Shown: positions 13,692-41,300 of the stretch, in pieces | Position numbering within the stretch: the first letter of the stretch is position 1 | Layout of the letters: each line of letters opens with the position of its first letter | NCBI GenBank assembly: GCA_030145625.1 | Contig: JAQYVF010000031.1 | Coordinates: 1 to 48,209 of the forward strand | From: Desulfocapsa sp. | Lineage (GTDB): Bacteria > Desulfobacterota > Desulfobulbia > Desulfobulbales > Desulfocapsaceae | Length of the DNA: 48,209 nt | Direction of reading: 5' to 3' | The notes under the pieces: generated by a model | Told to the model about the DNA's origin: nothing | The model's input: only the letters and a program-made list of their open reading frames with translations | The model's database searches: none | Translations under genes and position numbers: made by a program

Positions 13692-14474
13692 TCAAGAACA
13701 GCGATATAAATCAATCTGTTCAGGGGCACCCAGACAGGCGAGTGAAGCTAAATAGTCCTCATCATGCAATACGGGGAACAGGTTACAAATCCCCTGAAAG
13801 CGTTCTCTATCCACCCAAAGTAGTTTTGGATTGTCATCTTTCTCAAAATTTACCGCAAAACTATTCAGAGGAAATGACAAGCCGCTTCCCACTGCCTTGA
13901 TAAATGCCTCTTTACGCGTCCAGCAGCGGTAAAATCCCATTATCAATGCCTTCCCTGAGAGTTGCGCCAGGCCATGATATTCTTGCTCAGAGAAAAAGCG
14001 CTGTGCCAGTTTCAGGCATTTCACATCATCACGCATATACTCAATATCAATTCCAATCTCACAGAGTCTGGTAACGGCAAATAGGGCAATGTCCTTGGAA
14101 TGAGTGACATTGAAAAAGAGTGCTTTGTTTTTTCCAGGATTGAGTAAAGAGGGTTTCCCATGTCTGTTGTATGAGAAGGTGAGTTCTTTTGCAGCAACAC
14201 CGGTATACCGACTGAGCAGGTTTCTGAGTGTGGTTCGTGTCAGGACAAAGTTGTTTCTATCCGAGTCGAAACAAAAACGCTCCGCCTTTTGAATTTCATC
14301 TTTGGAGAGGATATCACTGGAGATCTCTTCAGCATTTTTGACTAATGAAAGTTTCCAGATATGCACACTCCTGCCAGGACATTCAGGGGCGGTTGACGCT
14401 ATTTTCCATTGCTCTGCTCGTTTCATGTCTTTCGTATTTATCATGGAGCGATATAGCTTGCCAGAAGTATGCAC
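13692..14474 (-). CDS. 4'-phosphopantetheinyl transferase, Sfp type
   Basis: The enzyme moves the phosphopantetheine arm of CoA to a serine of carrier proteins. Numbered from the upstream GTG (260 residues), it has NRHGKP (residues 103-108), FNVTHSKD (121-128), the magnesium motif GIDIE (141-145) and WTRKEAFIK (185-193). Its length matches the Sfp group used for secondary metabolism rather than the AcpS group. The start is uncertain: the GTG at 14474 and ATGs at 14444 and 14426 have no clear ribosome binding site. It is divergent from the A-T-R NRPS gene, whose carrier domain is the likely target. The ACP of the dar-like operon is a second candidate. Confidence 0.93.
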   Translation of the reverse strand: MHTSGKLYRSMINTKDMKRAEQWKIASTAPECPGRSVHIWKLSLVKNAEEISSDILSKDEIQKAERFCFDSDRNNFVLTRTTLRNLLSRYTGVAAKELTFSYNRHGKPSLLNPGKNKALFFNVTHSKDIALFAVTRLCEIGIDIEYMRDDVKCLKLAQRFFSEQEYHGLAQLSGKALIMGFYRCWTRKEAFIKAVGSGLSFPLNSFAVNFEKDDNPKLLWVDRERFQGICNLFPVLHDEDYLASLACLGAPEQIDLYRCS

Positions 14475-14503
14475 CTAAAAAAGACGCACGCCAACTTACT
14501 CAA

Positions 14504-14587
14504 ACCTCAAACCTCAATCCTCAATCCTCAATCCTCAATCCTCAATCCTCAATCCTCAATCCTCAATCCTCAATCCTCAATCCTCAA
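14504..14587. repeat. 12-copy heptamer tandem repeat (TCCTCAA)
   Basis: Ten perfect copies of TCCTCAA (14518-14587) follow two copies of ACCTCAA (14504-14517), for 84 bp in all. The array begins 30 bp upstream of the GTG start of the transferase gene and ends 177 bp before the NRPS start, within their shared promoter region. Seven is not a multiple of three, and the array is outside both genes. Confidence 0.95.
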
Positions 14588-14764
14588 GATCATACAAGCC
14601 CTGGTCTCCCCTTGCATATAATTTAATCAATAGCTGTTGCTTTTCTTTCTGTGGAACGATAAACCAAAATAATGCCACCTGACACCAGGCTCAGGTTGCC
14701 CACCCCACCATCACGTAATGGCTGGTTAGCTTGGTGTTATCCATAAATCTGTTCAGGAGTCGCT

Positions 14765-17749
14765 ATGTTTGATGCCACACATGCAGACCTCAGTCTCAAT
14801 GACCCGCAGGAACTGTCCGGTCTTTTCAGCAAATGCGCGGACATGACGCCGAACAATATCGCCGTCGTCCATGGCCGCGAGACTATCACCTACAAGGAGT
14901 TGGATCTGCTTTCCAACCGCTACGCCGACTATCTGCATCGCCGCCATCACATCGAGCGCGGTGATCTGGTCTGCGTCGCCTACGATCGCGGAATCAATTT
15001 CATTGTTGCAATCCTGTCTATTCTCAAATGCGGAGCAGCTTATGTCCCCATCGATGCCAAAGAACCGGCGGAACGGCGCCACGACATCATCGACGATGTG
15101 GCCCCGAAGTTGATCCTGGTACAACCGAAGCATCGCCACGACTTTGATTCCTCTAACTGCGTCAGCCTCGAAGACCTCACCGACATCTATGCCTTTTCGC
15201 CCGCACCGCGCCAATCCCACATCCACAGTCACGACCTCGCCTGCGTCTTTTTCACATCCGGCTCCACCGGTCGTCCCAAGGGCGTCCTGCTCCCACATCT
15301 GGCCCTGACCGGCCTGATCCGCAGTCCCCGTTATCTGACCATCAACCCTGAAGATCGGGTGTTGTCGTCAAGCAGCATCGCCTTTGATGCCGCCTCATTT
15401 GAGATCTGGACGGCCCTGGCCAACTCGGCGACGCTTGTCTGCATCGACTACGAAACCATCATCAACCCGGAGGCCTTTGCCGCCTTCCTCGACCACCAGG
15501 ATATCAGTGTCATGTGGATCACCTCGGCCCTGTTCGACCAGGTGGTGGCCTTCCGCCCCGGTATGTTCAAAAAAGTCAAATACCTGCTTTCCGGCGGCGA
15601 CGTGGTCAATCCGAAGACGGTTTACAAAGTGCTGAACAACGACCAGGGAAGGCCAAAGGCCTTTATCAACGGCTACGGCCCCACTGAAACCGGTATCCTG
15701 GCCACCTTTCAAATGATCACTGAGATGCACGACGACAATGTGCCCCTGCCCATCGGCAAGGCCCTCGCAGATACCGAACTCTACGTGCTCGACGAGGATC
15801 GAAAACCGGTTTCGCCCGGAGAACCTGGTGAGCTCTATATCGGCGGTCATCGATTGGCCAAAGGCTATCTGAACCTGCCGGAAAGGACTGCGCAGTCATT
15901 CGTCCAGAACCCCTTCACCGGCAATCCGACCGACATCCTTTATCGCACCGGCGATCTGGTGCGCTTCCGAGCCGACGGCAGCCTTGAATTCACCGGCCGA
16001 GCCGACCGTCAGATCAAATTTCGCGGCTTCCGACTGGAGCTCGACGGCATCGAAAATGTCCTGGTCAGTCATCCGGATGTGGCTAATGCTGCGATTAAGA
16101 TGGTCAAGATCAACGGTGAGAAGTGCCTGGTCGGCTATATACAGCTGGAAACTGATCACAAAGATGACTTCTCCGTCGCCGACTACAAGGCCTATCTCAA
16201 CGACAAAATGCCGTCGTATTCAGTACCGAGGGTTATCATGGTGATGGATCAGCTGCCAGTCACCCAGCGTGGCAAGATCGACCGCAAACAGCTGCCGGAG
16301 CCGGTGATCAATGAAGAGAAGCGCGATAACATCGTCGCACCGCGCACAGAGACCGAGAAGATCATCTATGACGTCTGGTCCGAGTGCTTAGCCCGGAAGG
16401 CCTTCGGCGTGACCGACAACTTCTTCGACCTGGGCGGCTCGTCTATCCTGCTGGCCACCGTCTATACCGGTATCCGCAGCCAGATTCCAACCCCGTTCAC
16501 CCTCGACGCCTTCCTGAAAAACCCGACCATTGAGGGGTTAGCCCGAACCATTGACGAGCATGGCGGTCAAGCCGATCACGCAAACGAACGTGCAGAAGCA
16601 GAGGCCGACGCAGTCCTCAACGCCAGCATCCGCCCGGCCTGGAACACTGCAGATGATGCGGAAGGCAATGCGGTACTGCTCACAGGCTCCACCGGTTTTC
16701 TCGGCGCCCACCTCCTGGCTGAGCTGCTGGAAAAAAGTGACCGCCCGGTGTACTGCCTGATCCGTCCCCATGAAAACGTGTCACTGCATGAGCACCAGCA
16801 CACAGCACTACAGCGACTCGCTCTAAACCATACGCTGAAGGCAGCCGATCGCATTCGTCCCATTGCCGGGGATCTGGCCGAGCACGGATTGGGCCTGAGT
16901 CCCCTGGATCATCAGCGCATCCTGGACAACTGCTCACACATCATTCATTGCGGGGCCTATGTCCACCACATCTATCCTTACAGCAGACTCAAGACCGCAA
17001 ACAGCCTCAGCACCCGTGAATTGATCAAGATCGCGATGCGCGGACGTCCAAAGAAGCTCTCTTTTGTCTCAACGACCAGCGCTGTCACCCAGTGCAATGC
17101 ACAGGGGATTGGCTATGAGGGACGGGTCGGAGAACATCCTGCAACGTTTTTTGGCGGCTATGCCTTATCTAAATGGGTCTCTGAACGGTTACTGGCCCAG
17201 GCCTTCGAACGCGGAATGAGTGGCCTGATTCTACGCCCCGGCAATATCTTCGCCAACAGTGAGACCGGGGTCGCAAGCTCGGTGACAAGCAATTTCGCAC
17301 TACTGATGATGCGCGCCTATCTGGACAGCGGCTTAGCGCCGGACCTGGAGCTGGTCTTCGAGGCCGTCCCGGTAAATCAACTGGCGGAAGCCATCGTGTC
17401 CTCGACCCTTGGCGACTGCGACCGCTCCATGCTGAACCTCTCAAACCCTCTGGAAATCTCTTTACAGGACTATGTCGCATTGCTCAGCGAACTGACAGGT
17501 AAAACAATCAAGATTGTTCCGTTCCAGGACTGGAAGCAGCAGGTGATCGCCCCCCTTGCTGAGTCTAGCCCGCTCTATCCGCTGACCCTCTACTTTCAGG
17601 ACGACCCAAGCGAAGAGATCATGCACTTCGAGACCGCACTCGGACAGGCCGAGCTCGCACGCCATGACATTGAGTATCCCAGAGAGTATCGTCAACTGTT
17701 GGGCGACGCTTTTGATAAAACGCTGCGAGGAGCGCTTGGGATGGACTGA
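14765..17749 (+). CDS. Single-module NRPS: adenylation - carrier - thioester reductase
   Basis: The 994-residue protein activates an amino acid, tethers it and releases it reductively as an aldehyde or alcohol. The A domain has TSGSTGRPKG (164-173), YGPTETG, YRTGDLVRF and the core lysine Lys504 (GKIDRKQL). The carrier domain has DLGGSSILL with Ser560. The reductase domain has the NAD(P)H loop LLTGSTGFLGAHLL near 640 and the Tyr799/Lys803 pair in GGYALSKW. There is no condensation domain. Reading the pocket by eye against GrsA gives D-A-F-W-L-G-G-I-L-K, close to the known valine code, with Asp208 present for the alpha-amine. Single A-T-R proteins elsewhere yield amino aldehydes that can pair into pyrazines. 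CAGGAG lies five bases before the ATG. The gene is GC-richer than its surroundings. Confidence 0.93.
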   Translation: MFDATHADLSLNDPQELSGLFSKCADMTPNNIAVVHGRETITYKELDLLSNRYADYLHRRHHIERGDLVCVAYDRGINFIVAILSILKCGAAYVPIDAKEPAERRHDIIDDVAPKLILVQPKHRHDFDSSNCVSLEDLTDIYAFSPAPRQSHIHSHDLACVFFTSGSTGRPKGVLLPHLALTGLIRSPRYLTINPEDRVLSSSSIAFDAASFEIWTALANSATLVCIDYETIINPEAFAAFLDHQDISVMWITSALFDQVVAFRPGMFKKVKYLLSGGDVVNPKTVYKVLNNDQGRPKAFINGYGPTETGILATFQMITEMHDDNVPLPIGKALADTELYVLDEDRKPVSPGEPGELYIGGHRLAKGYLNLPERTAQSFVQNPFTGNPTDILYRTGDLVRFRADGSLEFTGRADRQIKFRGFRLELDGIENVLVSHPDVANAAIKMVKINGEKCLVGYIQLETDHKDDFSVADYKAYLNDKMPSYSVPRVIMVMDQLPVTQRGKIDRKQLPEPVINEEKRDNIVAPRTETEKIIYDVWSECLARKAFGVTDNFFDLGGSSILLATVYTGIRSQIPTPFTLDAFLKNPTIEGLARTIDEHGGQADHANERAEAEADAVLNASIRPAWNTADDAEGNAVLLTGSTGFLGAHLLAELLEKSDRPVYCLIRPHENVSLHEHQHTALQRLALNHTLKAADRIRPIAGDLAEHGLGLSPLDHQRILDNCSHIIHCGAYVHHIYPYSRLKTANSLSTRELIKIAMRGRPKKLSFVSTTSAVTQCNAQGIGYEGRVGEHPATFFGGYALSKWVSERLLAQAFERGMSGLILRPGNIFANSETGVASSVTSNFALLMMRAYLDSGLAPDLELVFEAVPVNQLAEAIVSSTLGDCDRSMLNLSNPLEISLQDYVALLSELTGKTIKIVPFQDWKQQVIAPLAESSPLYPLTLYFQDDPSEEIMHFETALGQAELARHDIEYPREYRQLLGDAFDKTLRGALGMD

Positions 17750-21406: not shown

Positions 21407-22042
21407 ATGATTGTCACACTGACCAATCAGAAAGGCGGCTGCGGAAAGAGTACCACGACCATGAACCTGGCCCTGGGAACAGCAGCGCTGAATCACAAGA
21501 CGGCACTCATCGACGCGGACGAGCAAAAAAGCTGTATCGAGACCCTGCAGGACTACAGCAAACCGAACCTGAGCCTGTTCGAGGCCGGAAAGGACGTTGA
21601 CAATCTGGCAATGGAATTGAAAGACGATTTCGATTTCATCTTTATCGATACCCCACCGCACAGTCATCACGTCATGTTCCAGGCCATGGCTGTTTCCGAT
21701 TTCATCATCATTCCCCTCCAGGCCTCACCACTGGACATTCGATCCGCCAAGCGTACCATAGACGCGTGTGAAAAAGTGCAGAAAGATATCGGCAGAACAA
21801 TCCCCTCCTACTTTCTCCTCAACAGAGTAAATCCACGAACCACCCTCAGCAAAACAATCGGCGTATACATCCGTGAACTCTATACCGTCCCCCTGCTCCA
21901 GTCTCGACTGCACAACCGGGTAGCCTATGCCCAATCTCTCATGCACGGTAAATCGGTGATTGAATTCAGCAGGAGCTCAGATGCCGCTCTGGAAGTGACC
22001 AACCTGCTCAAAGAGGTCCACCGCATTTTTCAAGAGAACTGA
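21407..22042 (+). CDS. Orphan ParA/MinD-family ATPase
   Basis: The 211-residue protein begins with the deviant Walker A motif NQKGGCGKSTT, including the signature lysine before GG. It has a switch I-like DADEQKS and the Walker B region FIFIDTPP. Members position plasmids, chromosomes or protein complexes on the nucleoid or membrane by ATP-driven cycling. No ParB gene or parS-like repeat is next to it, so it is an orphan whose cargo is unknown. GGAGGG lies six bases before the ATG. It stands alone between the methyltransferase and the AdhE-like gene. Confidence 0.88.
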   Translation: MIVTLTNQKGGCGKSTTTMNLALGTAALNHKTALIDADEQKSCIETLQDYSKPNLSLFEAGKDVDNLAMELKDDFDFIFIDTPPHSHHVMFQAMAVSDFIIIPLQASPLDIRSAKRTIDACEKVQKDIGRTIPSYFLLNRVNPRTTLSKTIGVYIRELYTVPLLQSRLHNRVAYAQSLMHGKSVIEFSRSSDAALEVTNLLKEVHRIFQEN

Positions 22043-22166: not shown

Positions 22167-22413
22167 AGATCACCCCACACCTGGGACAGGCTCCTAACCC
22201 TTTATTTTCAACTTACATAACAACACGTTACGCCACACAAATGACCTGTCAAGGCGGTCACAACTCCAGAAAATTATCCTTTTTTTCTTTCTAAAAAAAG
22301 TTTTATTTAAAAATAATTTTCTCACTTTGCCTTTCCACCTTATTTTATTCATCAAATAGGAACTCTTTCTCTTTTTCACCTGACAACTGCGACAATATGT
22401 CCTTTGCCTGGCC

Positions 22414-22443
22414 TTGACAAAAGTACCTGGATAGCCCGATAAT
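22414..22443 (+). promoter_or_regulatory. Sigma-70-like promoter of the AdhE-like gene
   Basis: TTGACA (22414-22419) and GATAAT (22438-22443) are 18 bases apart, which would place the start site near 22450 and give a leader of about 70 nt to the ATG at 22519. The rest of the 476-bp gap from 22043 is AT-rich and shows no gene. Confidence 0.6.
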
Positions 22444-22518: not shown

Positions 22519-25107
22519 ATGCTTCATACCGACAGCGCAAACCTGACAGATGTCGAACATATTGATGAACTTATTTTTCAGGCCATATCCGCTCAAGATG
22601 CCTACCTCCAGCTTGATCAAAACTCCATCGACAAAGCAGTCAGTAAGATGGCAAGGGTCGGCGCATCCAATCACCTCACCCTGGCAAAAATGGCTGTGGC
22701 GGAAACAGGCAAGGGTATTCCTGAAGACAAATCGATCACAAATATTTTTGCATCCGTTGGCCTGGAGCAGAAGTTGCGAAACATAAAGACCGTTGGCCTG
22801 ATTGAAGACAACACGGTTTCCGGATATCAGACATTCTTGGAACCGGTTGGCATTCTGGCAACTTTTGTCCCACCGGAACACCCAACTGCCACCATACTTT
22901 CCCAGGCAATGCTCAGTGTCAAGACACGCAACCCTATACTATTCTCCTTTCACCCATCAGTCCAATCCTCTTGCGTGGCCACAGCAAAACTCATGCAGGA
23001 AGCGGCATTGGATAGTGGCATACCTCCTCACTCCATCCAGTGGCTGCCTTCCAGCTCGGAGAAGAGTATCCATGCCCTTACTCAACACCCGGAGGTTGCC
23101 CTTGTTCTCATGGATGAAAATGATTTCATCCAGCGTCTGCCCTCACCTGTCACTCCCCCCATCCTGGGATTGGGACAGGTCAACACCCCCTGTTTTATTG
23201 ATCGCTCAGCAGACCTGGAACAGGCACTAACGGATATTATTTTCTCAAAAAGTTTTGACAACGGCCTGATCAGCACCTCTGAACAGGTAGTGATTATCTG
23301 TAATAGAATCTATTCGCAAGCCCTTGATCTCCTACAGCAGAAATCATGTTACCTGGCAGACAGAGAGGAAAAAGACCTGCTGGAAAGCCTTCTCTTTCAC
23401 CCGGACAGTGGCGCACCCAATCCGGAGTGCATTGGCCGTAGCGCCTCTACCCTTGCTGAAATGGCAGGCTTTTCCGTCCCGGACCAGACCAAAATCATCT
23501 GCGCCGAAATTGCGGGAATAGGCCCGGAACATCCCCTCTCCCTGCCAAAGCCCTTCCCGGTTCTTTCCCTCCTGGCTTCAGAAAGCTGGTATGAAGCACT
23601 GTGCTTCTGCGAGGCTGCACTGGAACTCGGAACTTCTGCCCATACCGCAGTTCTCCATGCCCGGAACAACTCCATGGCCCAGGACTTCTCCACCAGACTT
23701 GAAGCCACACACACGACCTTGAACGGTCCGGCAACCCACGGTGATATCTGCCATCTCTCTCATCAAGGAAACTGCGAATTCACCTCAGCCCTGCACAAAC
23801 AAAATGGAAATCCGGCCACAGCCCCCCTCTCTGTGGACAAACTCCTTTCACACAAGGTCATCCAACAACGCCCCCCCAGACACAGGGAATGGGAGATCCC
23901 TCAAAAAATACTTTTTTCTCCAAACTGTATCAACTACCTAAAAAATTTTGCAGGAGCAGAAAGGACGCTGATCGTCACAGAGAAAAAACTGCTCAACAGC
24001 CACCACATGGAGACAATTCTCCACCATCTTGGCAGTCAGAAGTACCCGGTACAGACAGAAACCTTTCATGAGATAGCAGAATTAACCACCCTCTCTTCCA
24101 TCGAGCAGGGAATGCAGTGCATGGACCAATTTCGTCCCACTGCTGTTCTGGTACTTGGCGATGGAACCACCATTGACACTGCAAAGGCCATGCGTTTTTT
24201 TTATCAACGCCCCAAGGTTACTCTGCCACTCTCCCCGCTGCCTGTGCCCAGTAATGATTTTTCCGACTGCAAGGCAGATCCGCCGCAGAAACAGATACCC
24301 CTCATTGCCGTGCCCACCAATCTGGGAGCAGGATCGGAAATGAACTCATTTGTCACCATTTACGATGAGAACAGAGAAAAACCGCTCAATCTGCGATCGT
24401 GCGAACTCATTCCCGACTGTGCCCTCATTGATCCCACTTTTACCATTGCCGCTAAACCCGTAAAAATGGCCATGACCGGCATGACCATTCTCAGTCATGC
24501 ACTGGAGGCCTATGTTTCCGCTCTGGCCTCGGACTACTCTGATTCCATGGCCATAAAGGCCACAGAACTGATCTTCACCTGGCTCCCGGCAGCCTCTGTC
24601 AAAAAACCAAGCAATGAAGCCACTGAAAAAATTTACAATGCAGCGGCCATGGCAGGAATGGCGGCAAGCAACGCTCTGCTCGGTCTCAACCAAGCCATGG
24701 CCCATTCCTTAAGTTTCATGTTTCAACTGCCCCATGATCTGGCAAGCAGCCTGCTGCTTCCCCATATTATTCGCTATAACGGTGTAAAAAACCCTAGCCG
24801 TTTCAACCCACTCACTCCCGGAAGCCGCTACATCGCTCACGAACGCTACCAGGAAGTCGCCAAGGCCCTTTGTCTTGCAGATGACACTCCTGAGCAAGGA
24901 GTAAAATCGCTGGCCCATGCAATAACCCGACTGCAACAACAATTGGCACTGCCCCTGAAGCTGCGGGACTGCGGTATTGCGAAACAGGAATATTTATCCA
25001 GGGTAGAAGAGATGGCAGAACAGGCCTTTGAAAACCACTGTACAGCCACGAATCCGCGTCTTCCCCTGATCCAGGAGATCATCGATATCTACACCCTCAT
25101 CTATTAA
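22519..25107 (+). CDS. AdhE-family protein with degenerate catalytic sites (probable pseudoenzyme)
   Basis: The start is set at the ATG at 22519 (862 residues), eight bases after AAGG. The protein aligns end to end with bifunctional aldehyde-alcohol dehydrogenase: an ALDH half to about 440 and an iron-dependent ADH half from about 455. AdhE turns acetyl-CoA into ethanol via acetaldehyde and forms spirosome filaments. Key residues are changed. The ALDH nucleophile (Cys246 of E. coli, in ICASEQ) is Ser252 in LISTSEQ. Of the four iron ligands, Asp653 is Thr656 and His723 is Gln725, while His660 and His739 remain. GGGSPMDAAK has become GDGTTIDTAK. The frame is intact and conserved patches survive, which argues for a retained non-catalytic or altered role. 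Residue equivalences come from a by-eye alignment. Confidence 0.88.
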   Translation: MLHTDSANLTDVEHIDELIFQAISAQDAYLQLDQNSIDKAVSKMARVGASNHLTLAKMAVAETGKGIPEDKSITNIFASVGLEQKLRNIKTVGLIEDNTVSGYQTFLEPVGILATFVPPEHPTATILSQAMLSVKTRNPILFSFHPSVQSSCVATAKLMQEAALDSGIPPHSIQWLPSSSEKSIHALTQHPEVALVLMDENDFIQRLPSPVTPPILGLGQVNTPCFIDRSADLEQALTDIIFSKSFDNGLISTSEQVVIICNRIYSQALDLLQQKSCYLADREEKDLLESLLFHPDSGAPNPECIGRSASTLAEMAGFSVPDQTKIICAEIAGIGPEHPLSLPKPFPVLSLLASESWYEALCFCEAALELGTSAHTAVLHARNNSMAQDFSTRLEATHTTLNGPATHGDICHLSHQGNCEFTSALHKQNGNPATAPLSVDKLLSHKVIQQRPPRHREWEIPQKILFSPNCINYLKNFAGAERTLIVTEKKLLNSHHMETILHHLGSQKYPVQTETFHEIAELTTLSSIEQGMQCMDQFRPTAVLVLGDGTTIDTAKAMRFFYQRPKVTLPLSPLPVPSNDFSDCKADPPQKQIPLIAVPTNLGAGSEMNSFVTIYDENREKPLNLRSCELIPDCALIDPTFTIAAKPVKMAMTGMTILSHALEAYVSALASDYSDSMAIKATELIFTWLPAASVKKPSNEATEKIYNAAAMAGMAASNALLGLNQAMAHSLSFMFQLPHDLASSLLLPHIIRYNGVKNPSRFNPLTPGSRYIAHERYQEVAKALCLADDTPEQGVKSLAHAITRLQQQLALPLKLRDCGIAKQEYLSRVEEMAEQAFENHCTATNPRLPLIQEIIDIYTLIY

Positions 25108-25526: not shown

Positions 25527-27251
25527 ATGAAAAGGTCGCTGCTGGTTGGAATAAGTCTTTTGCTTTTATTAATACCCGGCGTTGTCAGTGCTAACTATGA
25601 TAGGCCGTGGAGAATAGGCATCTTGATGTGGCATGAGACCACCCATGACGAAAATGCCCTGAAGGGTTTCAAGGCTGGCATTGAATTGAGCGGAATCCCA
25701 CATACCTTTGACATACAGAGAGCCTTTAGCGACAAGAAAAAAGCCAAGGAATTCATTCGTAACTGGAAGAAGGAAAAAGTCGATTTAATTTACACCATTG
25801 GCACCAAGGGCACCATTTGGGCAATGGAAGAGGCTGCAGACATCCCCATCGTCTTCACTTCAGTTACCGACCCGGTTGCATCAGGAATAGCCGATAGCTG
25901 GGAAAACCAGGGGAAAAATGTTACCGGAAGCAGCAACTGGATTGACGGCAAATACAAACTGGAGGTTTTCAAAGAGAGCATTCCTAACCTAAAAACCCTT
26001 GGAGTTATTTACAACCTCAAGAATCCGGTTCCGCTTGCAGAGGTGGAATACGCCAGGAAACACGCGCAAGAATTGGGCATTACCCTGAAAGAGGCAACCA
26101 TAACCAATGTTGACCAAATAGAAACGGCGATTTCAAATTTAATAAGTCAAGGGATAGATGCCTTGTGGGTGCCAATAGAGGTACTGCTTTACCATAACAT
26201 GGCCCGCGTTGGCAGAGTAACTCAGCCCGCCAAACTGCCCGTAGTCTCCAGTACCTTGGAAGGAATAGAAGTTCTTGCACAGGGAGAATCCGTGGGCATG
26301 GTTTCCATCACGGTCGACTATGAGGCCCTGGGCAGGCTCTCTGTTCCTGCCGCCATTGAGATATTGACCACAGGCAAAAATCCCAAAGACATTCCCATTG
26401 CCATCCTCGAGCATCATCGCACCATAGTCAATGCCAATGCGGCAAATGCGATCGGCCACAAAATTCCACCGGCATTTTTGGCAAAGGCCAGTCAGGTCAT
26501 ACGTGGATTTTCAGGGCAGAAAATAGTAGTCAGCGGCACTGGAGATAGTCAGCAGCTTCTTGGAGAAGCTGCCAAGGCCCTGGAAGAAAAGCTTGGAGGG
26601 GGGAAAATCGAGGTTCCTGACAGCATTGGCTCAGGCGGTGGAATACGAGCGCTTGCTGCCGGGAAGATTGATCTGGCAAGGGTTGCCCGTCCACTCAAGG
26701 AAACTGAAAAGAAACTGGGACTCACCTACAAACGCTTTGCCCTATCTCCAATTGTCTTTGTCGTCCATCCCAGTGTGACCGGTGTTGAAAACCTCAAGAG
26801 TAAAGATATAGTCGGCATATACTCCGGCAAAATCAATGTATGGGGACAACTTGGCGGCCAAGATCAAAAGATATATGCAATAACAAGAGAGGTGGGGGAT
26901 TCCTGCAAAATAATCCTTAATGAACAGATCCCTGGATTCGCGGATATCGCTAAGCCAACAGCTAAAGTGATCTATAACACTCCTGAGGCCGTTGCAACAT
27001 TGATACGACATAAGAAGACTGTCGGCTATCTCCCCATGTCAATGACCATTGGCAAGAATCTGAAAATACTAAAAGTAGATGGTGTTTATCCATCAGCAGA
27101 AAACATAAGGAGCGGCCGATACAAACTGGTGCTTCCCTTTGGCATAGCCTACAAGGGAGAACTGAAAGGGCTTGCCCAAAGATATGTGAATTTTCTTTTC
27201 AGTCAAGAAGGCAACCGGCTCATTACGAAGTACGGTGCGATCCCCGAATAG
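25527..27251 (+). CDS. Double substrate-binding protein: ABC_sub_bind (TrpX-like) fused to PstS-like domain
   Basis: The 574-residue exported protein has a signal peptide (residues 1-22, ending VVSA). Residues about 28-325 match the ABC_sub_bind family (WRIGILMWHETTHDENALKGF, YTIGTKGTIWAMEEA, PIVFTSVTDPVASGI), known for tryptophan/tyrosine or unknown ligands. Residues about 330-574 form a second, PstS-like periplasmic domain (SGTGDSQQLL, GSGGGIRALAAGKIDLA, FLFSQEGNRLITKYGAIP). No permease or ATPase gene is adjacent. Instead a hybrid histidine kinase starts 44 bp downstream, so ligand sensing is more likely than uptake. Either domain could bind a small anion or amino acid. Confidence 0.88.
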   Translation: MKRSLLVGISLLLLLIPGVVSANYDRPWRIGILMWHETTHDENALKGFKAGIELSGIPHTFDIQRAFSDKKKAKEFIRNWKKEKVDLIYTIGTKGTIWAMEEAADIPIVFTSVTDPVASGIADSWENQGKNVTGSSNWIDGKYKLEVFKESIPNLKTLGVIYNLKNPVPLAEVEYARKHAQELGITLKEATITNVDQIETAISNLISQGIDALWVPIEVLLYHNMARVGRVTQPAKLPVVSSTLEGIEVLAQGESVGMVSITVDYEALGRLSVPAAIEILTTGKNPKDIPIAILEHHRTIVNANAANAIGHKIPPAFLAKASQVIRGFSGQKIVVSGTGDSQQLLGEAAKALEEKLGGGKIEVPDSIGSGGGIRALAAGKIDLARVARPLKETEKKLGLTYKRFALSPIVFVVHPSVTGVENLKSKDIVGIYSGKINVWGQLGGQDQKIYAITREVGDSCKIILNEQIPGFADIAKPTAKVIYNTPEAVATLIRHKKTVGYLPMSMTIGKNLKILKVDGVYPSAENIRSGRYKLVLPFGIAYKGELKGLAQRYVNFLFSQEGNRLITKYGAIPE

Positions 27252-27295
27252 ATGACCGGAATAACTGCTCAGAAATTCATTTCGGAGAAATCAAT

Positions 27296-29917
27296 TTGTT
27301 CAAATCAATCAACACAAAGATCCTGACCTCGCAGATTGGACTCGTTCTTCTTCTTTCTGTTACCTTGGGATTTTCCACCTATTTCCTGATGCTCAATGCC
27401 CTCACAAAGAATCAACAAAGCAATCTTGCATTTATTGCTAAATACTATGTTGAGCACCTGACCTCATACATTGATGTGAAGGAAAAGCAATTTGAAAAAA
27501 TTGCCATGGGCGAAGCCATACAGGCATATTCTCTTGAATATGAAGAGCCTGCACTCATGCAATATTTTGACAGTGTTACGACAGAATTTCCTGTGCTTTC
27601 CTATATAAACGAGAATGGATTTGAAGAGGTAACGCTAGTTAATAGTGAAAGGCTGGAGGCGTCTTCTGATATTAGTGACACCATACTCTTTGAACAAGCG
27701 ACATGGCAGCCGAACAAGGTCTTTACCATTTTTTCTGTTTCATCTGATTCCTCGACATCATGCGCAGCATGCATGGAATTCGCTTTCTACCGCAAAAGTT
27801 ACTTTGGAGAATTCGAAGGATTCATTGCAGGAAAAGTTCCGCTTCCTGATTTAATCAAAGAGATAGGGGAATTCAAATTCGGCCAAACCGGCTTTCTCAT
27901 GATCATTGATAAGCAGGGAAATGTGCTGTCCCATTTCCAAAAAGAAAACATCCTCAAGAAGGTTACTGTCCAGGGAAAACATTCAGAAAAAATCTTATCA
28001 CAAATCACAGCAATGAAATCCGGCTTTGGCCGTGCCACTATCATGGGCATTGATGGCTATGTCGCCTATGCACCGATAGAGGGACGGGACTGGACCATAA
28101 TTGCAACCTTGCCGTACAAAGAATTTATGAGTGCGCCCAATACGCTGAGAAATACAGCATTGACCGTCTCATCAGCAGCCTTGTTTATATGTATACTCAT
28201 TTCATTAGCCACAGTTAGAGGCATAACCAACCCGGTTCGCAGTCTGGTAACCGCATCCGGCCTGCTGGCCAAGGGAAATTTATCACAACGGGTAAATATT
28301 GAGCAGGAAGATGAGATAGGAGGTCTGGGCCAAGCCTTCAACACAATGGCCGCAGACTTACAGGAAACAATTGCCTCCCGTGACAAGGAGATCGCCGAGC
28401 GCAAGGAAGTGCAGCTGGCGCTAGTGGCAAGTGAGAAAAAATACCGCACCCTTTTTGAAGATTCCAGAGATGCCATTTACATGACTGCCAGAGAAAAGGG
28501 GTTCATTGATGTTAACATGGCCGCCCTTGATCTCTTTGGATATACCAGAGAGGAAATGATTGGGCTGGACGCCCGAGAAATTTACGTGACCCCTGAAGAG
28601 AGGAACCATTTTAAGCAGAAAGTAGAGCAAAACGGATCTGTCGGCGACTATGCGATAAAGCTCTGCAAGAAAAACGGAGCAGAGATGGATTGTCTGATCA
28701 CCTCCAGTGTTCGGCGTGATGACAATGGAACTATTCTTGGTTACCAGGGCATCATCCGTGATGTGACTGAACAGAAGCGCCTGGAAGCTCAACTCCAACA
28801 AGCTCAAAAGATGGAAGCCGTCGGCACTCTAGCCGGTGGTATCGCCCATGACTTCAACAATCTCCTCACGGGAATCCAGGGAAACGTCTCTTTAATGCAA
28901 ATGAATATGGATTTCACAGTCAAATATTATGAGCGGCTGAACACGATTGAAAAACAGATTCAAAGGGGATCCAGACTGACCTCACACCTGCTCGGTTATG
29001 CCAGGAAAGGCAACTACGAGATCAAGCCTGTTAACCTGAATCAACTGGTGGAAGAAACAGCTGAGACCTTTGGCAGGACCAGAAAGGAAATTACTATTCA
29101 TCGAGAGCTTACCGAGGATTTACTTGCCATAGAGGCAGACCCTGCGCAGCTGGAGCAGGTACTCTTGAATCTCTTTGTCAATGCCGCAGATGCCATGCCT
29201 GGTGGTGGTGGAAATCTTCTCCTCAAGACCGTGAATATAACCAATAAGGAGATGAAAGGAAAAGCGTATGATGTAAAAATCGGCAATTATGTGCTGCTGA
29301 CAGTAACTGATACAGGCACAGGTATGGCCCAAAAGACTATGGAGCGCATTTTTGATCCGTTTTTCACCACCAAAGAGAAGGGCCGTGGCACCGGTCTTGG
29401 ACTGGCGTCTGCTTACGGAATCATCAAGGGACATGGCGGCCATATTGACGTGGAATCCAAGGAGGGTCAAGGAACCACTTTCAATCTTTACCTGTCCGCA
29501 TCTGACAAAAAAGTCGAGAAACTTGTAAAATCTGCTGGCCAGATCATCAAAGGAAGCGGAACTGTCCTCCTGGTAGAAGATGAACAGGTTGTCCTGGAAG
29601 TAGGCCAGGAATTGTTAAAAGCCATGGGCTACCAGGTACTAACAGCCAAGGATGGAAAAGAGGCTCAAGAGGCATATAGAGAGAATAGAGACGAGATAGA
29701 CATCATAGTGCTGGATATGATCATGCCCAACATGGGTGGCGGTGAAGCCTATGACCACTTTAAAAAGATTAACCCGGATGTAAAAGTGCTGCTTGCCTCC
29801 GGATACAGTATTGATGGAGAAGCGAACGATATTCTGGCCCGCGGTTGTAGTGGATTTATCCAAAAACCTTTCAACGCAGAAGAGTTGTCTCTGAAATTAA
29901 GCGAAATTCTGGGATAA
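27296..29917 (+). CDS. Hybrid sensor histidine kinase (sensor - HAMP - PAS - HisKA - HATPase - REC)
   Basis: The 873-residue kinase starts at a TTG with GGAG upstream; the next Met lies past the first membrane segment. Two membrane segments (about 10-32 and 280-302) enclose a dCache-like sensor with a paired cysteine segment (SCAACMEF). Then come HAMP, a PAS domain (about 380-495), HisKA with phospho-acceptor His518 in [10 protein letters not shown], the HATPase ([22 protein letters not shown]) and a receiver with Asp807 in [11 protein letters not shown]. The AHDFNN type of H-box is usual in such hybrid kinases. No separate output regulator is adjacent. The gene follows the double binding protein as a two-gene operon, implying that the binding protein presents the signal. 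Confidence 0.92.
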
Positions 29918-30106
29918 CAGCATAGTTTTCACAGGGCACTGTTCAAACAAACTAAGCCACCTCTAACCACCAATAATACAAGAGACTACAGTAGGTTTAG
30001 ATCTGTGCAATGCAACGGCAGAAAACCTTGATGCAACGAAAATATGAATGAGGTTTTCAAGCAAATATCTCAAACTGCACTACCATTTTTCAATTTTGGA
30101 GTCAAA

Positions 30107-31537
30107 ATGCTATCTAAGGTAAAATCAATTCAGTGTATTATTTTTCTTTTCATTTTCAACTCAAGTATGCTTCTGCAGGCAGCAGAGCCCGTGTTGATAA
30201 CAGATATCAACCCTGCAAATCCTTACGACGGTATTTCGCAAAACATTTCTATGGGCAACACATTATACTTCAGAGTTGATGACGGTATTCATGGAACAGA
30301 ACTATGGCGATCCAATGGCAATGTCTCTAGTACAGAGCTTGTGAAAGATATTCAATCAGGTGCCGGTGGCTCCTCACCGAACTACCTGACCGTAGTCAAT
30401 AATATGCTGTATTTCACTGCGTATGAAAACCAGCATGGTAATGAACTGTGGAAATCTGATGGAACTGCTGTTGGTACCGTATTGGTAAAAGATATTAACC
30501 CTGACGCTGCTACCCCGGGAATACGTGATCTTACCGCAATTGGAAATACGGTGTATTTTGAGGCAGATGATGGTGTGAACGGCATAGAATTATGGAAATC
30601 TAATGGAACAGAAGCTGGCACCAAACTTGTAAAAAATATTAATCCTTCAGGGTCGTCCTCTCCGCGTTATATGGCAACAATGAATAATATACTCTATTTC
30701 AATGCCACTGACGGCATCGATGGTAACGAACTGTGGAAATCTGATGGAACTGCCGCTGGAACCAGTATGGTAAAAGACATAAATCAAGGCATTTCGGGCG
30801 GAAGGCCAGAAGAACTTACCATTCTAGAGAATACACTCTACTTCACGGCTGATGACGGTATTCATGGTTACGAGCTGTGGAAATCTGATGGGACAGAAGC
30901 TGGCACCGTACTTATTAAAGATATTAATACTCTTGAGAGTGTTCCTGGGCAGACACGTTCCGGCGGGGTTTTACATCTAACCAACTTCAACAATACGCTT
31001 TGTTTTCAGGCTGATGATGGTAATGGTGATGGTATTGAACTGTGGAAATCCAATGGCACGGCTGTTGGCACAACGCTTGTGAAAGATATTCGACCCGGAA
31101 GTGACTCCTCCTCGCCTCAGTCCTTCACTGCTGTTAACGATACACTGTTCTTTGATGCCGCTGGGGATGGTATCGGCAGGGAACTATGGAAAACTGACGG
31201 TACTGCTGAGGGAACGGTGCTCGTAAAAGACATTTATCCCGGCACCACCTCCTCCAGCCTCCAATATCTGACTGCTTTCGAGAATATGTTATATTTTAAT
31301 GCTAACGACTATACCCATGGTAAAGAATTGTGGCAATCTGATGGAACAACTGAGGGTACGGTGCTTGTGGAGGATCTTGACCCCACCGGATCTTCAGACC
31401 CGAAAGGTCTTACCGTTTCAGGCAACACACTGTATTTTAGTGCCAATGGTGCAGAACTGTGGCAAATAAAAGGACATAGCGGGCTATTTTTCCCAATACG
31501 TTCCTCAAGTGGAGCAGTTCTTATAATTAGCCTATAA
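30107..31537 (+). CDS. ELWxxDGT repeat protein, secreted
   Basis: The start is at the ATG at 30107, seven bases after GGAG, which gives a signal peptide ending LLQAAEP; the longer frame adds 21 non-signal residues. The 476-residue protein is made of about nine repeats of roughly 45-50 residues, each ending with ELWKSDGTxxGTxLVKDI or a variant, with NxLYFxAxDGxxGxELW before it. Repeats of this kind fold into beta-propeller blades in surface or secreted proteins of unknown ligand. The final repeat lacks DGT. The protein ends FFPIRSSSGAVLIISL without an obvious sorting signal. Confidence 0.88.
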   Translation: MLSKVKSIQCIIFLFIFNSSMLLQAAEPVLITDINPANPYDGISQNISMGNTLYFRVDDGIHGTELWRSNGNVSSTELVKDIQSGAGGSSPNYLTVVNNMLYFTAYENQHGNELWKSDGTAVGTVLVKDINPDAATPGIRDLTAIGNTVYFEADDGVNGIELWKSNGTEAGTKLVKNINPSGSSSPRYMATMNNILYFNATDGIDGNELWKSDGTAAGTSMVKDINQGISGGRPEELTILENTLYFTADDGIHGYELWKSDGTEAGTVLIKDINTLESVPGQTRSGGVLHLTNFNNTLCFQADDGNGDGIELWKSNGTAVGTTLVKDIRPGSDSSSPQSFTAVNDTLFFDAAGDGIGRELWKTDGTAEGTVLVKDIYPGTTSSSLQYLTAFENMLYFNANDYTHGKELWQSDGTTEGTVLVEDLDPTGSSDPKGLTVSGNTLYFSANGAELWQIKGHSGLFFPIRSSSGAVLIISL

Positions 31538-34632: not shown

Positions 34633-34990
34633 AACCTTCCTTTTCAAGAACAATAAACTGCCGATATAGGTTAGGTGTTTCTGCCAGGATGTGCCATTAC
34701 TGCCTTCGAGTTAAATGCACCCCGTAGCCTTCCAACCTCTTTTCTTCTAATCTTCTCACAACCTGTAGAGAGGAGCAAGTTGTTTGCCAACCATCGTTAA
34801 AATTATCAGGACGTGACGTCCATGAAGATTTGTATCACTACAAATTAGCATCATGTTCCAGAATTCCCTTATCGGAACGAATTTTAAGCCAAGCCACTTT
34901 TGGTATCTGGTAAGCTTTTTCCTTGCCAAGAACAGCCCTATTCCGTATCCTCAGCATTTGTCTCCCTACTCTATTGCCCGAGGTACTGCC
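34633..34990. other. Divergent intergenic region, HD-GYP / xdhC
   Basis: No gene is seen. The region contains the palindrome ACGTGACGTC-like stretch near 34812-34820 and the second copy of the 41-bp repeat (34910-34950). An open frame from 34853 continues into xdhC, but its first 46 codons lack family similarity and a binding site. Confidence 0.5.
34910..34950 (+). repeat. 41-bp degenerate repeat, copy 2
   Basis: This is the second copy of the element at 32029-32069 (33 of 41 identical). Both copies are on the same strand and both are 40-75 bp upstream of a start codon. Confidence 0.6.
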
Positions 34991-36031
34991 ATGATCCCTG
35001 AACTCTTTTTAAATGATCTTTGCCAGAGAAAAACCTCCGGTGTACTAGCCACCGTCCTTCACTCTGACGGTCATGGTCCGGCAAGGGCCGGAGACAGGCT
35101 CTTTTTTTCCGGGGGCAAACTGGTAGCAGGAACCGTGGGTGGGGGGAGCAATGAGCAGCAGGTTCTCCAGGCCTGTGCTGCACTTACAACAAGTAGACAG
35201 CAACTTGATATCAGTTCATTTTTACCGAGCAGTCTTCCTTCCTGCGGCGGAAAACTCCAGGTCCTGCTGGAACGGAACGACCTCGGCCATACGGAAGAGA
35301 CCTCTTTCTGGGAGACTTTACAGCAACTGATTCCAGGCCCAGACCCTCTCCTCTTCCTCTCTCTGCTGGGAGAGTCAGATCAGCCTCCCAACTATCTGCT
35401 TGCTAATGAAAAAGGCGTGCTGGCGGCCTTAAATGAAGAAGACAGGTCAATAATGTTAGCACCTGAGATCTGGCAACAACTCATGACTGCTGAGCAGTGT
35501 TCTCTGCAAGAACTCACCATCGGTTCCACCCAATGCTCCGTCTTTATTCAACCGCTCAATCGTAATGGCCGACTTTTCCTTTTGGGAGCCGGGCATGTTG
35601 CCAAAGAAGTGGCCTGGCTGGCAAACCGGACCGGATTCCAGGTCATCATCGTGGATCCACGTCAGGAACTGATGCAGCCCGAACATTTTCCTGCAGCAAG
35701 CACTCTCTATCCTGAGAAATCCAATGATTTTTTTTCCAAGGATTCTATCGGGTCCAGAGATTTTTTGGTCATTGCCGGACCAGATCACGCCACTGATCTG
35801 GCCATCCTTGAGCAGGCGGCAAGCACGCCGGCACGCTATGTCGGAATGCTAGGCAGCCGAGGAAAAATTGCCTCATTTGAAAAAGTACTCAGAAAAAAAG
35901 AGCGCTGGCAAGCCCTTGAGAGTCGTCTTCACGCCCCCATCGGTATTCCCATCTCATCCAGAACTCCTGCCGAGGTAGCAGTCTCTATTGTGGCCGAACT
36001 CATTAAGATACGGGCAAACCCATCCGACTGA
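34991..36031 (+). CDS. xdhC: XdhC/CoxI-family molybdenum hydroxylase maturation factor
   Basis: The start is set at the ATG at 34991 (346 residues), preceded by GAGG; the longer frame adds unrelated sequence. The N-terminal XdhC/CoxI domain has SGGKLVAGTVGGGSNEQQVL. The C-terminal Rossmann domain has LFLLGAGHVAKEVAWLA, VDPRQ and ARYVGMLGSRGK, all typical. XdhC binds molybdenum cofactor and promotes its sulfuration before insertion into xanthine dehydrogenase-type enzymes. No molybdenum hydroxylase gene lies in the window, so the client enzyme is elsewhere. The protein stands alone on its transcript. Confidence 0.9.
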   Translation: MIPELFLNDLCQRKTSGVLATVLHSDGHGPARAGDRLFFSGGKLVAGTVGGGSNEQQVLQACAALTTSRQQLDISSFLPSSLPSCGGKLQVLLERNDLGHTEETSFWETLQQLIPGPDPLLFLSLLGESDQPPNYLLANEKGVLAALNEEDRSIMLAPEIWQQLMTAEQCSLQELTIGSTQCSVFIQPLNRNGRLFLLGAGHVAKEVAWLANRTGFQVIIVDPRQELMQPEHFPAASTLYPEKSNDFFSKDSIGSRDFLVIAGPDHATDLAILEQAASTPARYVGMLGSRGKIASFEKVLRKKERWQALESRLHAPIGIPISSRTPAEVAVSIVAELIKIRANPSD

Positions 36032-38345: not shown

Positions 38346-41300
38346 TTAGTCTCGTTTTCCGAGAGGCGAAATATCGACAGCAGCGTCCCCTTTCTTATTC
38401 ACCAAAATCTTAAGGAGGCTCTGCTGTCGTTCCTTCCATGCACCCAACGGAATCTCACGATGCACATGAGCATCACGGAGATCTCTCAGCATCAGCCCAA
38501 TCAGCCTGGTGGATTGAGATCGGGATTTGGACTCCTTCAGCATCGCCAAACGTGTATTAAACGCCCGTGACGACACCGGAACCTTATGTTCCGGATCAAT
38601 AATCTGCACATAGTGCGATTGTTTTGACAGACCACGATACCTGGCGCTCTTGAGATATACACCATAGGTACCCGGTGCCGTTCCCTTGGGAATTATCGCA
38701 GTGATCGATTTCCTTCTCGGATCTGGCTTGACTTCTTTCAATGGTATTCTCGTCTTACCCGATACGAGTATTACCTCACGCACTTCTCTGAAAGTGCCTT
38801 TATCGACACCAATGCTTATCGCTTGATCCCGACCAGCATCGATGATTTCGGGTTTGACAGAAGCAACAGTTGGTATTGTCAATGAAACAGGGATCTGTGC
38901 AAGTGGCATATCCCCGTACATGACAACGATTGTGCCCATCTTTGCCCTCGAAGGGACAAAAGTCTGTGAATAACTTCCATCCAGATTGTCGGTAACAGTC
39001 GATGTGGACTTGAGAAATCCGTCGGATGAAATAGTGATAGAATCACTGTGACCAGGCCCGATGAGCGAGCCACCCACGGAAACGGGAGTTACGGTTACAG
39101 TCACACCACCTCCGTCTGGCGTTGATTCATCGGGAGTAATATCAATCTCCGGATTCTTTTCGTCGATCTTCATGCCGATAGCAAGTCCGTGCACTGTTTC
39201 CCGCCTGAATGGATCACACTCGGCAATCCCCCTGGCGACGGACGTGAACTGATAGTATCCTGCGATTTCGGTTTCCCGAAACCTTTCGTAGTAGGTGCCT
39301 GCTTTTTCCGACAACTTCACTGGCACCGGTTTCAGATCCTTTCTGAACTGTGGGAGATCTCCAAACTCCCTCTGAAAAGCCATCATCATGCGCTGCTCAA
39401 CACTCAGCAAATCTCCTTTAATCTCCTTTGGTATCTTATCAAGCTGCTGCTGGGTTATCCCTGCTGATGACAGGAAGTTTCCGACATTGATCAATGGCAC
39501 ATTGACTGTAACCACAACGTTCGCCGTTGTGATAGGTGATTGCTTCTCCTCTGTCAGATCAATCTTGAGTGGAATCGCCGCTCCAGGCGCCCAGTATGAG
39601 CCGCCAGAGGGAAGAGGGAGATTCATCGACATATGAATACTCGATTCACTCATCACCGAAGACGAATACTGCACGGGATGGGATGATGGGTTGGATATGG
39701 TCATCTTCCACATACCTCCGTGCTCCACCGATGCCCCGGTTATAAGGGGATAGCCAATCTTCAGCAGGTTGTAGGAGCTCTTGGTGATAGCAGTAACCTT
39801 GCCGCCAAAGAGATGCGCATTCGATCTGTTAATTGTCACACCCTCGGGACTTGTAACCGAGAGGTTCAGCTTCTCCGATGGTGTGTCCCACGTAGCGATA
39901 AACGTCGTGCCATAGTCCTTGCGATTGATTGGAATTTCAATAACATGTTGTTCCCCAGGAGCAAGTGTCGCCACAGGATCAATAATCATGTCGCTGTTTG
40001 TTGCTCCTGCAACGGCATTGACAAAGAACTTGTCCAGGCCCAACGAACTTTGGGTAACGTGGAAAAAACCATCTGCTGTGCTATTTGCAAGAAGCTGAAG
40101 CAAATTGATATCGATACCGGTGTAGGCGTCTCCTCCCACCGTACCGAAGCCAACGGAGTAAACGTTGATATCATTTGCGTCGAATTGCTGTAAGAATGCC
40201 GCCTCAGAGGGATTTCCGCCAGAGGTCTTCTTCCCGTCAGAAAAGAAAACGATGGCTTTTCGACGTCCAGCGGTTGTCCCTGACGTCATGACATCAAGGG
40301 CCTTCTGCAATGCCCCCCGAATATCGGTGGAACCGGCGGCAGTGAGATTCTGAACAGCGGTTCTCATATCGCCAATATTGCCTGCACCAAAATCGGTAAG
40401 CTGATCGGTCGGGCCAAAATCTACCGTAATGCTCTGAGCGCCGATATCTCCGGAAAAACTCACTTGCGCCAGGCGGTCCTGGGCATCAAGACGCATCAGA
40501 TCCAAAAACAGATTGGCCGAGTTCTTGAGAACATCGATCTTCATCTGTTCACCCGATGAAACCGGAACGTTGCCGGCCATGCTGCCGCTTCGGTCAAAGA
40601 CCAGGACAACATCGGCAACCCTGGCAACCTGGGCCAGCGCAAGGTTTATTTCCTTATGCTCAAGGACATCGTTATTGTGATCCACCTGAATCAGAATGAA
40701 CACGTCATTCTCCAAGAGATCGTTTACCGTTGTCCCCGCTCCAAGCAAAGCATCCGCATTCGCCTGGCTTATCTGTACCGTTGACGTATGTGATACAGAT
40801 CCATTGATTGCCATGGGATTGAACATTTGCTGAGCAGTGTCGGTCAAGACAACATCACCACCCAGATACACATCATCAGAGAGAAGGATGCGGTAGCCAA
40901 AGTTGCTGCCGGTGGATTTCGCCCCGTTGTTCTCCACGCTCCAGGTGAACGTCATGTTTGTATTCAGGGCCTGGATGGTAACACGGTCGTCACAAAGGAC
41001 CTCCAGCTCTGCCAGGTCCGGATAGGGAAATCCCACAAGGGAGTAGTCCTGATAGGCCTGGGGCACATCAAAACCGGTCACACGGGCTTTCCAATGACCA
41101 ACCTGACCAACAGGAACGTTCTGCACAAAAACCTGCTCAACGTTATTGAGGTGATCCTTCCCCTGGGTGGCAACCCACGTGCCGTTGCCAGTGAGATCAT
41201 TGGCCTGTACGTACTCATCGACATTGGAAGGGTTTCCAGCCGGAATGGTCGGCGTCACGATAATGGCAGTGCCCGCGATCTGCTGCGCGTCGGTCAGAGG

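Follow-up and report, generated by a model that had tools for sequence, protein, structure and literature searches.

Bifunctional AdhE joins an aldehyde dehydrogenase (ALDH) half to an iron-dependent alcohol dehydrogenase (Fe-ADH) half and forms filaments known as spirosomes. The explanations given for spirosomes are channelling and the control of activity, and why metabolic enzymes make filaments is an open question. Here we describe an AdhE-like gene, which we term AdhEp, in a stretch of 48,209 nucleotides (the window; assembly GCA_030145625.1, contig JAQYVF010000031.1, positions 1 to 48,209) from Desulfocapsa sp., a member of a genus that is known for sulfur disproportionation. Judged by its sequence, AdhEp would be classed as a pseudoenzyme: catalytic residues have been lost and the gene is under purifying selection. 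On balance, we lean toward the view that this AdhE-derived pseudoenzyme has been retained as a self-assembling scaffold or binding protein and not as an acetyl-CoA/ethanol enzyme.

In E. coli AdhE, the ADH-ADH contacts are held by Phe670, which sits in a pocket of I460, F462, and I712; spirosomes no longer form when this residue is mutated (PMC6778083). The corresponding residue is Tyr in C. thermocellum, whose spirosomes are stable, and a GxGxxG motif lies at the AdhE monomer interface (PMC12204686). Three AdhE-specific loops have been described (loop 1, 413–433; loop 2, 561–589; loop 3, 758–772), of which loops 2 and 3 seal the ALDH-ADH channel, and the catalytic Glu335 of the E. coli enzyme is named along with Cys246 and His367 (PMC7080775). 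As for the genus, D. sulfexigens is reported to be unable to use organic electron donors, and the main text of its genome paper does not mention ethanol, alcohol, or aldehyde (PMC3739170). Among open-licence papers, we found no description of an inactive AdhE or of an AdhE-like protein from Desulfocapsa; the sole joint mention of AdhE and pseudoenzymes concerns ALDH16, in work on ALDH structure.

The original prediction, which was made from the DNA alone, described AdhEp as a full-length AdhE homolog with an intact frame of 862 codons, and this is correct. The frame is open, and the protein comprises an ALDH half (about residues 1–443), a linker (about 444–455), and an Fe-ADH half (about 456–862). 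It matches the Pfam models PF00171 (Aldedh), PF00465 (Fe-ADH), and PF25137 (ADH_Fe_C) over their cut-offs, so it is a full-length ALDH and Fe-ADH fusion, and HMMER aligns residues 10–859 with AdhE proteins of solved structure (8uhw is best, E = 1.2e-141, then 13he, 7dag, and 6ahc; for 6ahc, which is E. coli AdhE, E = 3.3e-136). Identity is 35% to the canonical AdhE of a genus mate (G005) and 30.7% to E. coli AdhE. AdhEp scores 746.8 bits against PRK13805/NF010378 and does not reach the equivalog cut-off of 951 (three other members that we tested scored 747.1, 764.2, and 631.4 bits, and the canonical AdhE of G005 scored 1331.1). PADLOC placed AdhEp in none of its families, and a viral fold library returned nothing for it at E ≤ 0.001.

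Our searches covered 56 genomes, and the 20 genomes of the genus were also searched with a seven-row profile. AdhEp orthologs are present in 8 of the 20: seven are full-length (including the one in the window) and the eighth, in G005, is a C-terminal fragment at a contig end (64% identical). The other full-length copies are 82% (G002), 80% (G007), 79% (G012), 62% (G003), 59% (G009), and 50% (G017) identical to the window protein. In the 36 genomes from outside the genus, the best match (E = 5.1e-58) spans residues 3–410 only. A GTDB scan recovered five of the orthologous loci and one unrelated partial match.

To compare active sites, residue columns were read from a MAFFT alignment of the orthologs with 26 canonical AdhE, from which we hand-picked 15 diverse rows (for the Glu column and other counts) and seven identity-matched rows. 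(The truncated canonical row C_G461 was excluded from the invariance counts of both sets; one of the 26 rows is truncated at positions 656 and 725, which leaves 25 there.) The predicted replacement of the ALDH nucleophile Cys by Ser252 was confirmed, and the alignment does not restore the Cys. Two losses went beyond the original list: His121 stands where the ALDH has an invariant Asn, and Pro343 replaces the catalytic Glu (Table 1). Because none of the seven full-length orthologs has the Cys, the Asn, or the Glu, parsimony suggests that the loss of the ALDH site predates their common ancestor; the iron site varies among lineages. In known ALDH chemistry, acyl-enzyme formation requires the Cys, so AdhEp is unlikely to be an ethanol enzyme. 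A conserved serine in place of the Cys is argued against by the Pro or Asn that relatives have at position 252. Also, the three glycines of GxGxxG, a motif that we placed on the E. coli row of the alignment, are Ala, His, and Asn in AdhEp.

In the Fe-ADH half, the ligands of the window protein are T/H/Q/H. The alignment with canonical AdhE bears out the predicted changes of Asp to Thr656 and His to Gln725, with His660, His739, and their spacing kept, and also the altered GGGS motif, which is GDGT. His660 is present in all seven orthologs, all three Fe-ligand His are present in four, and the full D/H/H/H set is present in one (G012). Thus, the loss of the iron site is not family-wide, unlike that of the ALDH Cys, Asn, and Glu. 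On a midpoint-rooted tree of AdhE and AdhEp, the latter form one clade (support 100/100) whose stem is long, at 1.29 changes per column. This tree implies at least two losses of His725 and, for Asp656, either two losses or a single loss with a regain in G012.

Table 1. Features of the AdhEp locus, in coordinates of the window. G000 is the genome that contains the window, and residues of the seven full-length orthologs are always listed in the order G000/G002/G007/G012/G003/G009/G017.
Feature	Coordinates	Strand	Observations
AdhE-like pseudoenzyme gene (AdhEp)	22519..25107	+	862 codons + TAA, open frame; 862 amino acids
His121 codon, replacing invariant ALDH Asn	22879..22881	+	H/H/H/Q/H/H/Y; Asn in 26/26 canonical
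Ser252 codon, replacing ALDH nucleophile Cys (E. coli Cys246)	23272..23274	+	S/S/S/N/S/P/P; Cys in 26/26 canonical
Pro343 codon, replacing catalytic Glu (E. coli Glu335)	23545..23547	+	P/P/P/P/S/S/P; Glu in 15/15 diverse canonical
GDGT (547–550), replacing Fe-ADH GGGS nucleotide-binding motif	24157..24168	+	GDGT/GDGT/GDKT/GDGA/GDGA/GNGA/GNDC; GGGS in 0/7
Equivalent (564–592) of loop 2, which in AdhE seals the ALDH-ADH channel	24208..24294	+	0/29 invariant vs. 12/29 canonical
Thr656 codon, replacing Fe-ligand Asp	24484..24486	+	T/A/A/D/T/T/N; Asp in 25/25 canonical rows with a letter
Helix 660–679, with Fe-ligand His660 and Tyr673 (E. coli Phe670, ADH-ADH spirosome contact)	24496..24555	+	16/20 invariant vs. 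6/20 canonical
Gln725 codon, replacing Fe-ligand His	24691..24693	+	Q/S/H/H/H/H/M; His in 25/25 canonical rows with a letter
His739 codon, retained Fe ligand	24733..24735	+	His in 6/7; Pro in G017
Loop 3 equivalent (760–774), ALDH-ADH interface	24796..24840	+	10/15 invariant vs. 4/15 canonical; family-specific motif NPLxPGSxYxAH
27-bp conserved upstream element	22331..22357	+	6/6 orthologs; one copy per genome in 6/6 genomes at ≤3 mismatches; reversed-pattern control 0
Sigma-70-type promoter, TTGACA-18-GATAAT	22414..22443	+	11/12 matches; both boxes in 6/6 aligned orthologs (second box CATAAT in G003)
ParA-family ATPase gene, 5' neighbor	21407..22042	+	adjoins AdhEp in G000, G002, G009, G012; not in all genomes
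XdhC-family gene	34853..36031 (conserved start near 34991)	+	next 3' gene of AdhEp in G003, G005 (fragment), G009, G012

As the original prediction recommended, we computed the ratio of nonsynonymous to synonymous rates (omega) for the orthologs, and we found purifying selection. In the six pairs among the four closest orthologs, omega is 0.191–0.264 (GY94), synonymous divergence is unsaturated (0.49–0.62), and twice the log-likelihood difference from omega = 1 is 155–234. (Of the pairs with G017, only G000–G017 was taken.) For neighboring genes, omega is 0.18–0.26 for an M48 peptidase, 0.25 for XdhC (G000–G012), 0.10–0.12 for an O-methyltransferase, and 0.08–0.15 for ParA (three close pairs). 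So, AdhEp is constrained about as much as the M48 peptidase and XdhC and about half as tightly as the O-methyltransferase and ParA, and it is far from neutral.

It is also hardly credible that AdhEp is a slowly decaying relic without a function. The eroded active sites and the failure to detect AdhEp in 12 of the 20 genus genomes, some of which are incomplete, would fit such a relic, but besides the low omega, none of the seven full-length copies contains an internal stop, six of them are exactly 862 codons at 59–82% identity, and the promoter and an upstream element are kept. (For G017, a copy of 858 codons was used, and G003 and G009 have in common one one-codon insertion and one one-codon deletion.) Hence, disabling mutations in close relatives, which had been named as the sign of a decaying gene, are absent from the seven full-length copies, and the idea of selection for something other than ethanol metabolism is supported by the intact frames, the low omega, and the lost catalytic residues.

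We also considered the age of the gene. On a midpoint-rooted tree of gyrA, carriers of AdhEp lie on both sides of the root, so AdhEp would be either as old as that split, with several subsequent losses, or it would have moved within the genus. Carriers show only weak clustering on this tree (104 of 500 shuffles of the labels were as low). The tree has 15 genomes: gyrA was found in 16 of the 20 genus genomes, 15 rows were used, and G017 and four non-carriers are absent.

If AdhEp is under selection without ALDH chemistry, then it is informative to see which of its parts are constrained. Invariant positions were counted in the seven AdhEp (mean pairwise identity of 0.630) and in seven canonical AdhE (0.645). 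Several regions for cofactors, chemistry, and the channel are relaxed in AdhEp: besides loop 2, these are loop 1 (7/21 invariant vs. 18/21 in canonical AdhE), the ADH nucleotide (NAD) motif (3/13 vs. 10/13), the region of the ALDH Asn (0/10 vs. 8/10), the second Fe-ligand stretch (6/23 vs. 16/23), the NAD half of the ALDH (68/206 vs. 102/206), and the NAD half of the ADH (34/185 vs. 68/185), which is the least conserved of the four half-domains of AdhEp. In contrast, the spirosome-contact helix and loop 3 are now the most conserved, and the top 20-residue window of the protein is 658–677. In these alignments, then, constraint has been relocated. The contact residues themselves are retained: Tyr673 is present in 7/7 orthologs, and the pocket (I/V464, F/Y466, and M714) is still hydrophobic.

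We propose that AdhEp functions as a homo-oligomer, which could plausibly be a filament of the spirosome type or something shorter, and that in this form it would act as a binding protein or scaffold. No other AdhE would be needed for assembly, as most of the hosts show none. In the genome that contains the window (229 contigs, completeness estimated at 100%), no second AdhE was found; that search otherwise gave one distant match of the ALDH type and five partial matches, the latter to frames of Fe-ADH size. Seven of the eight carriers have a single AdhE match at E ≤ 1e-60 (two of these genomes, G012 and G017, are 81% and 83% complete). Within the genus, canonical AdhE is found only in G005, which is the only genome with both canonical AdhE and AdhEp (a fragment), and in G004, which lacks AdhEp and whose canonical AdhE is split over two contig pieces. 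(These pieces were left out of the trees; the residues seen in them include the Cys, the Asn, GGGS, the Asp among the Fe ligands, and two of the His.) The canonical AdhE of G005 (C348, L014) groups with a Firmicutes sequence (Subdoligranulum; support 82/80), so it is either a recent transfer or a contamination.

These data bear on the suggestion in the original prediction that AdhEp co-assembles with a genuine, catalytically active AdhE and tunes it. Retention of the F670-type interface and the presence of both proteins in G005 would be expected from this, but besides the missing partner in the host and the single matches in most carriers, canonical AdhE is rare in a sample of the phylum: apart from AdhEp itself, 7 of 297 genomes match at E ≤ 1e-150, of which four exceed the family cut-off and three match in the ALDH half only. 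We consider co-assembly very improbable. Overall, then, the earlier interpretation survives in two respects, as selection for something other than ethanol metabolism is supported and a structural role is the best fit to the conservation of the F670-type helix and loop 3, and it is not supported as to the partner. A stronger form of the scaffold proposal is that AdhEp is a dead AdhE that is now a stand-alone filament or scaffold protein, with much of the catalytic and channel machinery dropped, a filament contact that is under tighter constraint than in the canonical set that we compared, and host cells most of which show no ethanol-forming AdhE; we put this forward only tentatively.

Several observations weigh against a scaffold or binding role. 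First, parts of the active sites persist: G012 has all four Fe ligands, and His375 (E. coli His367), Lys556, Thr600, and Gly605 are kept in 7/7 orthologs. Second, the catalytic half of the ALDH is not relaxed (92/223 residues are invariant in AdhEp and also in canonical AdhE) and the nucleophile stretch (246–257) has 7/12 invariant residues vs. 9/12, so this part may still bind a ligand or carry out a residual reaction. Third, the ADH-ADH contact is common to the ordinary Fe-ADH dimer (PMC7080775), so the conservation of the helix would fit a plain dimer or tetramer equally well. This helix also bears His660, and its boundaries were set around F670 after we had seen the alignment, although 658–677 is also the top window. 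Fourth, the oligomerization strand (E. coli 87–101; 2/15 invariant) and the linker (2/12) are not specially conserved. Fifth, AdhEp was not detected in most of the genus, as noted above. Finally, structure prediction did not reproduce the placing of the two halves in the spirosome. A first model, from eight sequences, was poor (mean predicted local distance difference test, or pLDDT, of 63.6). A second model, from 24 sequences, was better (pLDDT of 79.3, predicted template modeling score of 0.48) and its top fold matches are AdhE spirosome chains, with whole-chain template modeling (TM) scores of 0.43–0.47 and root mean square deviations of 22–25 Å; single halves match well (TM of 0.86 for ALDH 3k9d and 0.89 for ADH 3zdr, normalized by target). 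However, the 24-sequence alignment contained canonical AdhE rows, so this model shows compatibility with the fold only.

The first two of these points also speak for the main rival, which is that the ADH half, or the ALDH half with other chemistry, catalyzes some other reaction and has altered its metal site and its use of cofactors. The retention of His660 throughout, and of all three Fe-ligand His in most of the orthologs, would make sense in such an enzyme, as would the residues that are invariant specifically in this family, which include C225, C304, C362, and loop 3. However, the metal ligands, the GGGS motif, and the nucleophile position vary (S/N/P at 252 and T/A/D/N at 656), which is not expected of a conserved new site that uses them, and the NAD half of the ADH is the least conserved half-domain. 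We consider a re-purposed enzyme to be unlikely, if worth taking seriously. As an ethanol enzyme, decay, and partnering with AdhE each seem unlikely too, a pseudoenzyme for assembly or binding is what would remain.

The region upstream of AdhEp is conserved. The original prediction noted a good promoter, and its boxes are indeed kept (Table 1). The 27-bp element further upstream is likely to be a dedicated regulatory site, to judge from its conservation. We rejected the idea that this element marks a regulon: each of the six genomes contains a single copy, so no coregulated genes were found. Rfam gave only a sub-threshold match to a snoRNA.

A conserved promoter-proximal element could also suit a sensor, that is, a regulator that binds NAD(H), CoA, or an aldehyde without turnover and passes on a signal, as ErcA is supposed to do. 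Some of the ALDH fold and some of the ADH pocket persist, and the NCBIfam model for ErcA matches the ADH half (205.6 bits, cut-off of 550), though the canonical AdhE of G005 scores higher (278.8 bits). On the other hand, no regulator or kinase lies beside AdhEp in every flank: a histidine kinase is present in the window and in G002, and none was found beside AdhEp in G007, G009, or G012. This seems to us slightly less probable than a re-purposed enzyme. At positions 25527–29917, a 574-amino-acid protein with two periplasmic-binding-protein domains (ABC_sub_bind and PBP_like_2) lies beside a hybrid sensor kinase; it also adjoins AdhEp in G002, and searches next to AdhEp in G007, G009, and G012 did not find it.

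Two other neighbors recur. ParA was considered as a positioner of an AdhEp assembly, and we lowered this idea: ParA occurs without AdhEp in G001, G006, G008, G010, G011, and G015, and in G007 it is reduced to a remnant that matches residues 164–207 (L038, 14472–14603) beside an intact AdhEp, so ParA is dispensable for the persistence of AdhEp. At E ≤ 1e-40, ParA was not found in G003, G005, G007, or G017. The second neighbor is xdhC, which in the window is separated from AdhEp by 9.7 kb of other genes. The distance from the AdhEp stop codon to the start of xdhC is 12 bp in G009 and 9 bp in G003, and the gene order is ParA-AdhEp-XdhC in G009 and G012. Despite this linkage, we did not assign a function to XdhC as a partner: in G003, the xdhC directly 3' of an intact AdhEp (L040, from 10399) contains an in-frame stop, and xdhC occurs without AdhEp in G001 and G013. 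None was seen on the short AdhEp contig of G017, and the molybdenum-hydroxylase family PF02738 (of the xanthine dehydrogenase type) has no matches in G000, G005, or G012. The G012 ortholog of xdhC scores 223.6 bits against the related model NF045664, short of its cut-off of 350. An SbtM-type radical S-adenosylmethionine gene (627 bits, cut-off of 350) comes next after xdhC in G009 and is near xdhC or ParA in other members of the genus.

Elsewhere in the window, at positions 13692–17749, a 994-amino-acid protein with adenylation, carrier, and thioester-reductase domains is encoded next to a gene that by eye resembles a phosphopantetheinyl transferase; both are also in G007, and the region is possibly a small natural-product locus for an aldehyde or alcohol. 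A 497-amino-acid protein (30044–31537) has repeated ELWKSDGT-type units and no Pfam match over cut-off, and a predicted 2068-amino-acid protein (38346–44552) has, by eye, subtilase-like and von Willebrand A-like stretches.

If our proposal for AdhEp is correct, then chemistry is gone while a filament contact is kept, and the family would amount to a separation-of-function experiment done by nature, in a genus that includes a cultured species. There is also a warning for annotation, as AdhEp is easily labeled as an acetaldehyde/alcohol dehydrogenase, and ethanol metabolism would then be predicted wrongly.

Among known proteins, BdhE of Halomonas eurihalina (PDB 9ldl) is a further ALDH-ADH protein by fold, with 17% identity to AdhEp, and it probably belongs among the convergent ALDH-ADH fusions reported in PMC12454647. 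ErcA (NF041833) is like one half of AdhEp in that it is an Fe-ADH family protein that is annotated as regulatory (the name is from NCBIfam), but its model is a single domain of 382 positions whose cut-off neither AdhEp nor canonical AdhE reaches. ALDH16A1 is unlike AdhEp in that it is human, belongs to another ALDH family, and has no spirosome ancestry; to our knowledge, it has no Fe-ADH half. As in AdhEp, however, the ALDH of human ALDH16 lacks the catalytic Cys, and it has been proposed to be a binding protein (PMC8160307). Finally, AdhE itself has the same full-length ALDH and Fe-ADH architecture, and its spirosome contact residues are kept in AdhEp. AdhEp differs from it by the absence of the ALDH Cys, Asn, and Glu, of two of the four Fe ligands, of GGGS, and of the GxGxxG glycines, and in that loop 2 is unconserved and loop 3 carries a new conserved motif.

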